Source of the DNA: Candidatus Saccharimonadota bacterium
Lineage (GTDB): Bacteria; Patescibacteriota; Saccharimonadia; Saccharimonadales; Saccharimonadaceae
Direction of reading: 5' to 3'
Assembly (NCBI GenBank): GCA_017404725.1
Contig: JAFRBS010000001.1
Span: 1-64,000, forward strand
DNA length: 64,000 nucleotides
A model generated the notes under the pieces. That model worked only from the letters and a program-made list of their open reading frames with translations, did not search any database and was not told where the DNA came from. Position 1 is the first letter of the stretch; each line of letters starts with the position of its first letter. Position numbers and translations under genes: made by a program. Below are positions 60,371 through 64,000 of the stretch, in pieces.

Positions 60371-60446
60371 GGCCCGGTAGCTCAATGGATAGAGCAACTC
60401 CGTCCTAAGGAGAAGGTTGTGCGTTCGACTCGCACCCGGGTCACCA
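60371..60446 (+). tRNA. tRNA-Arg(CCT)
   Basis: 76 nt with encoded CCA. Acceptor GGCCCGG/CCGGGTC with one G-U pair; anticodon loop GTCCTAA giving CCT; T loop TTCGACT. Promoter TGATATAAT (TATAAT 60356-60361) just upstream. Confidence 0.93.
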
Positions 60447-60469
60447 TAATACTATATTATTATATACTT

Positions 60470-61432
60470 ATGCCAGAACAAAAAACTTACATTATCGATC
60501 TGATCCAAGACTTCCTCGAACATCTCGAGATTGAACTCGGCCGTTCGTTAAATACGGTCCGAAATTATGAACTATATTTAAATCGCTTTTATGAAATCGC
60601 CGGGACCGACCTGGACCACGAAATGTATCCCGAAGACATCGACCAAGAAATGCTTCGAAAATTCCGCCTGAGACTAAACCGCCTCGAAGATACCCATGGC
60701 AAACGTCTAACTGCCCAGACCCAAGCGTATTATTTAATCGCCCTGCGCGGTTTTTTGAAATATCTCGCGAAGAGAAACATTAATTCCCTCGATCCGGTCC
60801 TGGTCGATTTGCCGAGGACCCATCGCCCCGAAGTAAATTTTCTCCAGCTCGACGAAGTAAAGCGCCTCGTCGACGCCATCGAAGATCCAGTAAACGAAGC
60901 CGACGAAGAAACCCGTCTCCGCGACCGCGCTATCGTCGAACTTTTGTTCTCTGGCGGCCTGCGCGTTTCCGAACTTTGTAATTTAAATAAAGCCGACATT
61001 AATCTCGAGCGCCGCGAATTTATGGTCCGCGGAAAAGGTAGTAAGGACCGCCCAGTTTTCATAACCGAGTCCGCCGCCGATCATATTAAAGATTACCTCG
61101 CCATCCGCCGAGACAATCTCCCCGCGCTGTTTTTAAACAACTCAAAAAACCCCGGCGCTCCCGACCAAACCGGCAATTACCGCCGCCTAACCTCTCGCTC
61201 AATCCAGCGCATCATCGAGAAATATACTAAACTCGCCGGCATTACTAAGCATGTCACTCCGCATACCCTGCGCCATTCATTCGCGACCGACCTCTTAATC
61301 AACGGCGCCGACATCCGCTCCGTCCAATCGCTCCTCGGCCACTCGAACATTTCTACGACCCAAATCTATACCCACGTCACCGATTCCCACCTCCGCGAAA
61401 TCCACGAAAAATTCCACTCCGACACCGACTAG
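60470..61432 (+). CDS. tyrosine recombinase (XerC/XerD-like)
   Basis: Site-specific recombinase, likely resolving chromosome dimers. 320 residues from the ATG at 60470; the longer frame starts inside tRNA-Arg. N-terminal SAM-like core-binding domain (about 7-105), catalytic domain with Arg165 (SGGLRVSEL), Lys189 (RGKGSKDR), His265 and Arg268 (HTLRHSFATDLL), His291 (LLGHSNISTTQ) and the nucleophile Tyr300 (IYTHV). A complete active site. Its place between a tRNA and the DGR would also suit an integrase, but size and spacing match housekeeping Xer proteins better. Confidence 0.88.
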   Translation: MPEQKTYIIDLIQDFLEHLEIELGRSLNTVRNYELYLNRFYEIAGTDLDHEMYPEDIDQEMLRKFRLRLNRLEDTHGKRLTAQTQAYYLIALRGFLKYLAKRNINSLDPVLVDLPRTHRPEVNFLQLDEVKRLVDAIEDPVNEADEETRLRDRAIVELLFSGGLRVSELCNLNKADINLERREFMVRGKGSKDRPVFITESAADHIKDYLAIRRDNLPALFLNNSKNPGAPDQTGNYRRLTSRSIQRIIEKYTKLAGITKHVTPHTLRHSFATDLLINGADIRSVQSLLGHSNISTTQIYTHVTDSHLREIHEKFHSDTD

Positions 61433-61453: not shown

Positions 61454-61462
61454 TGTTATAAT
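61454..61462 (+). promoter_or_regulatory. extended -10 promoter of the DGR template RNA
   Basis: TGTTATAAT at 61454-61462, 22 nt after the xer stop, reading rightwards into the gene-free segment that ends in the template repeat. Transcription would start near 61469. Confidence 0.6.
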
Positions 61463-61837
61463 ATACCTGCGGGCGCGTAAATTTTTACAGGGCAAAAGAC
61501 ACGCAAGGCAAAGCGCCAAAAACGCAAAAGCGCTAAAAGCGCAAAAACGCCGAAGCCGGTAACTTATACCCCCTTTAAAAAATGAAGCCTGTAGAGGAGA
61601 TTACTGAGATTCGCTTATCGACGCGCAGAAGCGTGCGTGAGCCAAACCTGCTCAAGTCGTCAGCAGGGCCCTCCGCCTTCGAGAAGCCGGAGTTCAGCCA
61701 AGAAATCTCTGAAATTCCGTTTACTCAGTTGTGTTTAGACTGAGGGCTAGTGTCCCTGGAGTGGTCTAGCTGTACGTGTATCATAAGTCCAGTAGGTCGC
61801 GGACGGGTTTCTACCCGGTCGCTGTCCCCTTGCGGCG

Positions 61838-62031
61838 CGTATTATACCGGCTACCGCAACGGCGGCTCGGTCAACAACCCGTCAGACAACGCGAACTACT
61901 GGTCGTCTACGGCGAATTCCGAGGTGAACGCGTACAACTTGAACTTCAACTCCGATGGCAACTTCAACCCTCAGAACAACAACAACAAGTACAACGGATT
62001 TGCCGTACGCTGCGTAGCCGCGTCGTCCTAG
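61838..62031 (+). repeat. DGR template repeat (TR), AAC-rich
   Basis: In the coding sense this reads YYTGYRNGGSVNNPSDNANY, then WSSTANSEVNAYNLNFNSDG and NFNPQNNNNKYNGFAVRCVA, the C-terminal C-type-lectin/FISUMP-like motif common in DGR targets. It has 16 AAC codons and one AAT at the positions that vary in such targets; an unmutated AAC set marks a template rather than a variable repeat. The N-terminal body of a target protein is missing here. The matching variable repeat is not elsewhere in the window. Confidence 0.82.
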
Positions 62032-62065
62032 GCGTCGCCCTACGCGTTATTATCGGCTCTCCCCT

Positions 62066-62091
62066 CGCGCCGCGCGTTCTTGCGCGGCGCG
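62066..62091 (+). terminator. GC hairpin after the template repeat
   Basis: CGCGCCGCGC (from 62066) pairs with GCGCGGCGCG (to 62091) around a TTCTT loop, followed after about 10 nt by TTATTTTT. It could end the template RNA; DGR variable regions in other systems also carry a hairpin just downstream of the repeat. Confidence 0.6.
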
Positions 62092-62171
62092 TAGTGGGTT
62101 ATTTTTCCCCCATGCACTGTCCTCTACAGCGATTTACGCGCCCGCGCCGCATCAAGCAAAACACACAAGCA

Positions 62172-63401
62172 TCAAGCCGCATCAACCGCAACGTCCCAAT
62201 ACCTCCGCATCTTCTCCCGCAACTTCCGCGTATTATAATGACAAGAAAGCCCAATATACGCAATGACCGATTCCATGTCGCGATACCCCATCCCGGTCTC
62301 GACCGCCGCTTCCCAAAAACTGCGGCGAAAGCGCTTCGCTAGGACCGCGTGCGTCGGGTAAATCACAATCCCTAAGAATTTCACACCCTTATGAACCTCA
62401 GTCGTCGCTGTTTTTGTTGGGTGAATTTTCAGCCCCAGCCCTGCCAAAAATTCCACAATCTTCGGCTTGTCCGCAAGCGCCCGCTCAAGCTCCTCTTCGG
62501 TTACGATAATCACAAAATCATCAACATACCGCCCGTACCGTTTCCAGCCCAGCTCGTGCGTAATAAACCAGTCGAGCTTCGAGAGGTACAAATTCGACAA
62601 AAGCTGCGAAGTTAAGTTCCCGATCACGATTCCTTTCCCTGGCGGCTGGCAGTCCATCCGCTTCCCGCGCGGAACTTTGTCCCAGTCCGAGGCCTTCCCT
62701 CGCCGAATCACTCCTTCCGTCGGGTCGTCAAAAATCACTTCTTTCCATAGCGATAACAAAAGGTCATATTTCCAGTTATACTCATAATCCGGAAATTGGC
62801 GCCGTAGAGCCTCTTTAACGGCCTTGAAAAGCTTACGCCTATCTAGACTCATAAAATACGAGGAAATGTCAAATTGGAGTGCATACGCCTTTCTCCGGCC
62901 ATTTTTCGACGCGGACTTAATGAACTTCTGGATCCGCTTAACGCCATAAAGCGTCCCCTTCCCTTTCCGACAGGAGTACGAATCGTTAATGAACCATCTG
63001 TCCCAAATCGCCGCCGATTGGCGATACAGAAAATGGTGAATTACCCGATCTCGAAACGGCGCGGCGTAAATTTCCCTAATTACCGGCTTGAAATTCACGA
63101 ACGCAATCCCCCGCGAAGGCTTATACTTCCCCGTCGCGACCGACTCGCGCAGACCGGTCAAATTCTCCCGCTCTAACATCTCAAATTCCTGCTCATCTTC
63201 GGTCCCCCGCTTGTTTTTCCGCGCATCAAGATACGCCAGCCAAAGTTCATTATCAAGAAACCGCTCAAACGCCGAAAGCTGGTCTAGGTCAACTTCCGTC
63301 ATCTCCCCCATAATCTTATGTACCTTGAAAAACCGCTCGTTCGCCGCCTTAATTACTTCTTCCGGCGAAATTTCCCCGCTTTTTACTCTAGATTTTAACA
63401 T
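62172..63401 (-). CDS. DGR reverse transcriptase
   Basis: Copies the template RNA with adenine-specific errors to diversify a target gene. 409 residues with RT motifs in order: FKPVIREIYAAPFRDRVIHHFL (about 104-125), SYSCRKGKGTLYGV (141-154), LQFDISSYFMSLD (catalytic Asp178), GKGIVIGNLTSQLLSNLYLSKLD, in which IGNLTSQ (260-266) replaces the QGxxxSP of group II intron enzymes and is diagnostic for DGRs, the active site YVDD (292-295), and VKFLGIVIYP. No maturase or endonuclease domain. It overlaps the avd-like gene by 14 nt and points towards the template repeat. Confidence 0.95.
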   Translation of the reverse strand: MLKSRVKSGEISPEEVIKAANERFFKVHKIMGEMTEVDLDQLSAFERFLDNELWLAYLDARKNKRGTEDEQEFEMLERENLTGLRESVATGKYKPSRGIAFVNFKPVIREIYAAPFRDRVIHHFLYRQSAAIWDRWFINDSYSCRKGKGTLYGVKRIQKFIKSASKNGRRKAYALQFDISSYFMSLDRRKLFKAVKEALRRQFPDYEYNWKYDLLLSLWKEVIFDDPTEGVIRRGKASDWDKVPRGKRMDCQPPGKGIVIGNLTSQLLSNLYLSKLDWFITHELGWKRYGRYVDDFVIIVTEEELERALADKPKIVEFLAGLGLKIHPTKTATTEVHKGVKFLGIVIYPTHAVLAKRFRRSFWEAAVETGMGYRDMESVIAYIGLSCHYNTRKLREKMRRYWDVAVDAA

Positions 63402-63984
63402 TTAAAGCCTTCCCTTCTAGAACCTCTAATTTATGTTCTAACCTTCTTACTGTATCATAATCTATCGTCTGCTCGTTGACCAGAATCATCAAACTCGTCC
63501 GAATATGATGAATGCTCTCTAGCGCAAACGCTTTATATTTCATCGGCTTCAGGCCTTCCCAGCCGTTCGCCATCTTTACGTACTCGCGGACTAGCACCCC
63601 CGCCGTCTCCAGCATATCGTCCCCGACGAGCTTCCGCTCGCTCGGATCACATTTCCGCCCGATTTGCAGAACTATCCTCTCGACGTCTTTCATCGCCGTA
63701 AAATACGCCGGCCAGACCTTATCCGGCACGATTTTTTCGTTCAGATTTTCCCATTTTTGCTCCTCTTTTTCCTTCAGTTTGTCGATCGCTTCGCGCGGAA
63801 CAATCCTCGTCAACTTATATTCGTAGAGCCCATCTTTTTTGTACGACCGCCGTATGCCAAAAATTTCCAGATTCGCCTCGAACGCCTTCAGATTTTTGAT
63901 CACGACGACTTTCGCCCGCGTGAATTCGTCCAGGCCGTAGATTTTATCTTTGTCGGTGTGAATTTTTGGTGGTCGTTTTTTCAA
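63388..63984 (-). CDS. Avd-like DGR accessory protein (possibly incomplete at the 5' end)
   Basis: 198 residues from a TTG at 63984; the frame stays open to the window edge, so the true start may lie outside. The C-terminal 110 residues are helical and follow the four-helix-bundle pattern of Avd (accessory variability determinant): YFTAMKDVERIVLQIGRKCDPSERKLVGDDMLETAGVLVREYVKMANG, FALESIHHIRTSLMILVNEQTIDYDTVRRLEHKLEVLEGKA. Avd is a pentameric basic protein that binds the RT and template RNA. The gene directly precedes and overlaps the RT gene, the standard position. The N-terminal 80 residues are Lys-rich and longer than in BPP-1 Avd. Confidence 0.8.
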   Translation of the reverse strand: MKKRPPKIHTDKDKIYGLDEFTRAKVVVIKNLKAFEANLEIFGIRRSYKKDGLYEYKLTRIVPREAIDKLKEKEEQKWENLNEKIVPDKVWPAYFTAMKDVERIVLQIGRKCDPSERKLVGDDMLETAGVLVREYVKMANGWEGLKPMKYKAFALESIHHIRTSLMILVNEQTIDYDTVRRLEHKLEVLEGKALNVKI

Positions 63985-64000
63985 CTTTACGCAAAGGTGG

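Follow-up and report, generated by a model that had tools for sequence, protein, structure and literature searches.

The diversity-generating retroelement (DGR) of Bordetella phage BPP-1 consists of the reverse transcriptase (RT) bRT, Avd, a template repeat (TR), a variable repeat (VR) and the target Mtd. The TR, in sense orientation, is flanked by avd and brt, and the complex is recruited by a structured spacer that follows the TR on its 3' side (PMC12875486). Many orientations of DGR cassettes are known (PMC6642488), among them the 'inverted' DGRs of Shewanella, Vibrio and Photobacterium, which form group 4 of Schillinger et al. 2012 (PMC3521204). DGRs of CPR bacteria are known as well (clade 2 of Roux et al. 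2021; PMC8144416), and so are CPR genomes with multiple DGRs (Paul et al. 2017, as cited in PMC10907252).

We analysed a stretch of 64,000 nucleotides (hereafter the window), which corresponds to positions 1-64000 of a contig of 64,665 (C24), together with the rest of the genome (738,871 bases, 32 contigs); this MAG is fragmented and the VRs sit at contig ends. A preliminary description had recognized a DGR of CPR origin here, rightly on both counts: the DGR-type RT with IGNLTSQ and YVDD, the overlapping Avd-like gene and the AAC-rich TR were all found where it had placed them (Table 1). As judged by sequence comparison, the locus comprises an RT, an Avd-type accessory protein, a TR that is conserved in antisense orientation and at least five or six VRs with A-specific differences. 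The reading that we favour, and hold to be very probable, is a multi-target DGR of a Saccharibacterium in which a template RNA, apparently paired at its ends, is copied in an error-prone manner into FISUMP targets.

Table 1. Coordinates of the features of the DGR (window positions, unless preceded by a contig name)
Feature	Position	Strand	Basis or remark
Extended -10 promoter-like element TGtTATAAT of template RNA	61454-61462	+	Sequence; most relatives have a similar element in this position
Template RNA (proposed) with leader, TR and closing arms; about 680 nt	61468-62146	+	MFE z
P1 5' arm TGCGGGCGCGTAAATT (closing stem), at predicted transcription start	61468-61483	+	Pairs with 62131-62146
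P2 5' arm CTGTAGAGGA, in leader	61589-61598	+	Pairs with 62120-62129
TR	61841-62024; homology to cis target on to about 62114	+	AAC-rich; genome matches
GC-rich hairpin 3' of TR	62066-62091	+	Present 3' of cis VR too
P2 3' arm, at end of TR/VR homology	62120-62129	+	Pairs with 61589-61598
P1 3' arm	62131-62146	+	Pairs with 61468-61483
DGR RT, 409 aa	62172-63401	-	IGNLTSQ and YVDD; profile matches
Accessory gene, 256 aa (N-terminal region and Avd-like C-terminal domain)	63388-64000, on to C24:64158	-	Overlaps RT start; cut by window
Cis target gene	C24:64327-64665	-	Truncated 5' by contig; VR C24:64318-64517
VR, cis	C24:64318-64517	-	TR search of genome; nearest VR, 318 bp past window edge
VR	C14:9741-9924	-	TR search of genome
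VR	C19:1887-2070	+	TR search of genome
VR	C11:196-379	+	TR search of genome
VR	C20:3924-4107	-	TR search of genome
VR, cut by contig	C8:9574-9692	+	TR search of genome

The reverse transcriptase and its accessory protein

The RT matches Pfam RVT_1 (E = 8.6e-14) and the PHROG reverse transcriptase profile (3.6e-84). Its best PDB sequence match is 8ub7 (E = 5e-28), an entry named only 'Reverse transcriptase' which we take to be the Bordetella DGR RT. IGNLTSQ and YVDD are conserved in the RT alignment and correspond to the xxxSQ and YxDD motifs by which DGR-type RTs are recognized. The window RT is not of the retron type: it scored 42 bits against retron_St85, where the cut-off is 235, and its best matches were DGR-type RTs. 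A tyrosine recombinase gene (60419-61432, + strand; Pfam Phage_integrase, 2.7e-46) is located directly upstream of the template RNA.

In the clade of loci with an antisense TR (see below), the accessory frame mostly codes for ~250-400 aa, as against a protein of ~115-125 aa in sense loci. A profile of 65 antisense-clade accessory proteins matched the short (class B) Avd with E-values down to 7e-12 in a small database of five, the best match covering profile positions 165-261; one class B Avd in turn matched Pfam bAvd (3.3e-12). It is through this profile link to bAvd-type proteins that the C-terminal part of the accessory protein is identified as an Avd homologue, with an added N-terminal region. 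The window protein had no direct match in Pfam, the family had no convincing match in PDB or Pfam, and an NCBIfam search of the family returned Avd in 3/35 (best 0.0036). When the part of the protein inside the window was modelled with AlphaFold from the single sequence, the model (pLDDT 56) had a helical C-terminus, and a structure comparison of this low-pLDDT model listed generic helical bundles only, Avd not being among them. The N-terminal region is conserved in the family (WYK..G.SA); for this region hhalign suggests, as no more than a weak lead, a relation to MutS domain I (P = 0.0013, probability 19%).

An antisense template repeat conserved among relatives

The presence of the TR on the strand opposite the RT, which is the more unusual feature of the locus, had passed without comment in the preliminary description. 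TR/VR pairs near the RTs of relatives were typed by comparing each locus with itself and by noting which base differs between the copies; in class A and class B loci, 1479 of 1566 TR/VR mismatches are at A. The TR was found 3' of the RT and on the opposite strand in 66 loci, nearly all of them saccharibacterial, where the VR is either upstream of the RT on the RT strand (54/66) or beyond the TR on the TR strand (12/66), and nine further antisense loci were obtained from named contigs. A sense TR 5' of the RT occurs in four family members, ten loci deviate and 21 were untypable; among viral relatives, the sense 5' arrangement is present in 62 of the 65 that could be typed. The antisense loci group together in the RT tree as a single clade adjoining the sense loci, the exception being a few members within it that deviate or could not be typed. 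On named contigs this clade belongs mainly to Candidatus Saccharibacteria, many from animal gut and rumen, and its genus is probably Nanosyncoccus or near. By these comparisons, the antisense-TR architecture is conserved in a whole Saccharibacteria lineage. Individual arrangements also occur: the TR is sense and yet 3' of the RT in L140, L228 and L247, and TR and VR seem to have exchanged places in L079. DGR searches confined to the RT strand (DiGReF; PMC3521204) miss DGRs of the antisense-TR type.

Predicted pairing between the leader and the end of the template repeat

The extended -10 element may function as the promoter of the template RNA, judging from its sequence; a sigma-70 scan found no full -35/-10 site for this RNA, and -10 elements are only modestly enriched relative to the opposite strand. 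A search of Rfam with the template RNA gave no match. In the window the predicted stems amount to 14-16 bp (P1) and 10 bp (P2), and the MFE z-scores of the RNA are −6.2 and −7.2 (two computations).

For 65 antisense loci the best -10 element was chosen automatically, blind to the stems, and the stems were then scored. P1 scored 19.2 versus 15.0 for windows slid along the same locus (P = 9e-12), P1 stems scoring at least 20 were obtained with 22/65 cognate versus 45/650 non-cognate partners (P = 5e-9), and P2 scored 20.7 versus 17.4 with non-cognate leaders (P = 3e-11; P ≤ 0.05 in 20/65 loci), the P-values treating the loci as independent though they are related by descent and the helix tests having been refined after the first 15 loci. 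In a scan of the pairing along the TR, the maximum of P2 (z = 6.5) coincided with the end of TR/VR homology and that of P1 (z = 5.1) followed immediately; no P2 was seen in VR copies with their own upstream sequence. The nine further loci gave P < 0.1 for P2 in seven cases and for P1 in five. In many loci P1 or P2 is individually below significance; both recur, though the arm sequences differ between most loci. Among 25 loci preselected for strong P1, the mean z-score for stability was −3.7 for the whole RNA, −1.3 for the leader and −0.35 for the TR alone.

Clustering of P1 arms at the predicted start was discarded as independent evidence because it reflects mostly local base composition (54% versus 41% with non-cognate partners), and pairing of the leader with the TR body was barely above chance. 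The leaders of L069, L075 and L076 share sequence (CTACTGTTCCATC...AAGG.... and GGAAAGGCAAAG), which could serve to seed an RNA family model.

Alternatively, recombination might have inverted the TR of an ordinary DGR, with copying then relying on read-through transcription and no dedicated role for the pairing of the leader. The modest -10 signal agrees with such a view, and inverted DGRs are known and have been read as a one-time inversion (PMC3521204). We nevertheless consider it unlikely: the antisense position is kept in the 66 + 9 loci of a deep clade, and P1 and P2 are significant with divergent sequences and peak at the TR end, P2 being absent at the VR copies. As to the specificity of the signal, the same pairing test applied to 56 canonical viral DGRs revealed a weaker and broader leader-to-3'-flank signal (z about 3-4). 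Bracketing of the TR is therefore probably a general property of DGRs, sharper in the antisense clade and not unique to it. No description of the antisense-TR clade or of P1/P2 was found in the literature searched, several key papers being outside that search.

Variable repeats and target genes

The absence of a VR from the window, already noticed in the preliminary description, stands: the close TR matches on C24 are the TR itself and the cis VR past the edge. Its notion of a DGR 'without its target gene' turned out to be an artefact of the window edge, since the target adjoins. The target had been expected either beyond the right edge or elsewhere in the genome, and both expectations were borne out: six VRs matching the TR exist in the same genome, one in cis just past the edge and five on other contigs, so that the DGR would act in trans too. 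Second copies with A-specific differences, for which a search had been suggested, were indeed found: over TR positions 61841-62020, 117 of 124 TR/VR differences are at template A (291 A sites and 728 other sites compared, with 7 differences at the latter; Fisher P = 5e-63). There is thus, as in DGRs, a TR near the RT and near-identical VRs in protein genes, differing at TR adenines.

The cis target, the accessory gene and the RT are all on the same strand. Homology between the cis VR and the TR extends over ~274 bp and takes in the stop codon and the GC hairpin; four of the five trans VRs end near 62024 and the fifth is cut by its contig. The VRs end FISUMP/Fib_succ_major domains and are found at the 3' end of the target genes, which answers, at the level of sequence matches, the earlier question of which proteins are diversified: those with such C-terminal domains. 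FISUMP has a C-type-lectin fold. The C19 target scored above the Pfam cut-off for FISUMP/Fib_succ_major; the cis target fragment (E = 1.1e-7) is yet below the NCBIfam cut-off. The C19 target, the only complete one, is probably surface-anchored because it possesses a hydrophobic N-terminal segment (sequence read by eye).

The number of targets is six, with a safe minimum of five, since C8 carries an upstream half that could belong to the locus of another target. The location of the VRs at contig ends might also suggest strain variants of a single target gene split by the assembly. This is highly improbable: the 3' half of the VR is present on five separate contigs (C24, C14, C11, C20 and C19), a whole target gene is in place on C19, and only the C8 half could join another sequence. 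Further FISUMP domains without TR match were observed on C17, C19 (3136-3687 and 4594-4890), C30 and C32; some, cut at contig ends, may be upstream halves of VR targets and others look like untargeted paralogues. Least credible of all is a decayed, inactive DGR with old VR differences, for although the C20 VR has six non-A differences, the RT and accessory frames are intact, the A substitutions differ from one to another of the six VRs with hardly any other change, and the architecture has been maintained over a deep clade.

Other DGRs in the genome and the genus

Two more complete DGRs were found on C23 and C10 (RTs 49% and 46% identical), each with an adjoining + strand TR, an accessory gene and a VR target; their mismatches are at A sites in 25/25 and 17/19 cases. 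Each VR matches its own TR over the full length and the other TRs only in short conserved pieces, which indicates private TRs. Such an RT is present in 94 of 174 genomes of the genus, with up to four in some genomes. The occurrence of three independent DGRs in a 0.74-Mb genome, from a group living attached to other bacteria, suggests that surface diversification matters to this lifestyle. MutS domain I has no match in the genome of the window, and 14 of 59 sampled genomes of the phylum have one; a lack of MutS could help mutated cDNA to survive.

Proposed mechanism

In the multi-target DGR that we favour, the TR would be transcribed independently from its own promoter, giving a template RNA some 680 nt long. 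Two helices would form with the 5' leader of this RNA, P2 involving the TR 3' end and P1 the sequence immediately beyond, so that the template is looped out and the TR 3' end, where cDNA is expected to start, is held at the leader; the leader would then replace the BPP-1 3' spacer as the main structured part. Copying by the RT-accessory complex would introduce errors at the A positions of the TR, and replacement of VRs in neighbouring and distant FISUMP genes by the mutated cDNA would diversify their lectin-like C-termini. A more specific proposal, which we put forward tentatively, is that of a DGR lineage with an independent, antisense, end-paired template RNA, in which the part of a 3' spacer is taken by the 5' leader: the latter would hold the template at its 3' end (P2) and supply the RT priming site, a retron-like topology that arose within the DGR family along with an enlarged Avd. 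The question of how DGR RNA initiates could be addressed by comparison, because the antisense clade offers numerous template RNAs whose helices near the presumed cDNA start are divergent.

Comparison with known systems

The window DGR resembles that of BPP-1 in its RT with SQ and Y.DD motifs, its Avd-type partner, its TR/VR pair differing at template A and the position of the VR at the 3' end of a C-type-lectin-type gene; the GC-rich hairpin is also similar to the stem-loop after the BPP-1 VR. Unlike in BPP-1, the TR is antisense and 3' of the RT; its 3' flank is short and its leader measures about 180-430 nt. Handa et al. reportedly described pairing of the RNA flanking the TR in BPP-1, which may anticipate P2. 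Retrons have an msr-msd RNA with a1/a2 inverted repeats, i.e. a structured 5' part, a template and a closing stem between the RNA ends. The likeness to this organization is one of analogy only, as the RT here is of the DGR type and TR/VR pairs are present.

The group 4 inverted DGRs share with the present locus an RT and a TR on opposite strands. In group 4, however, TR, VR and target are on one strand and the RT alone is flipped (PMC3521204), whereas here target, accessory gene and RT are on one strand and the TR alone is opposite (54/66 loci); with its cis target on the RT strand, the window DGR falls outside that group. It agrees with the CPR DGRs, as far as the parts of the sources consulted describe them, in its candidate-phyla host and in the several independent DGRs per genome; the same parts (PMC10907252 and PMC8144416) contained no mention of TR strand, bracket pairing or an extended Avd.
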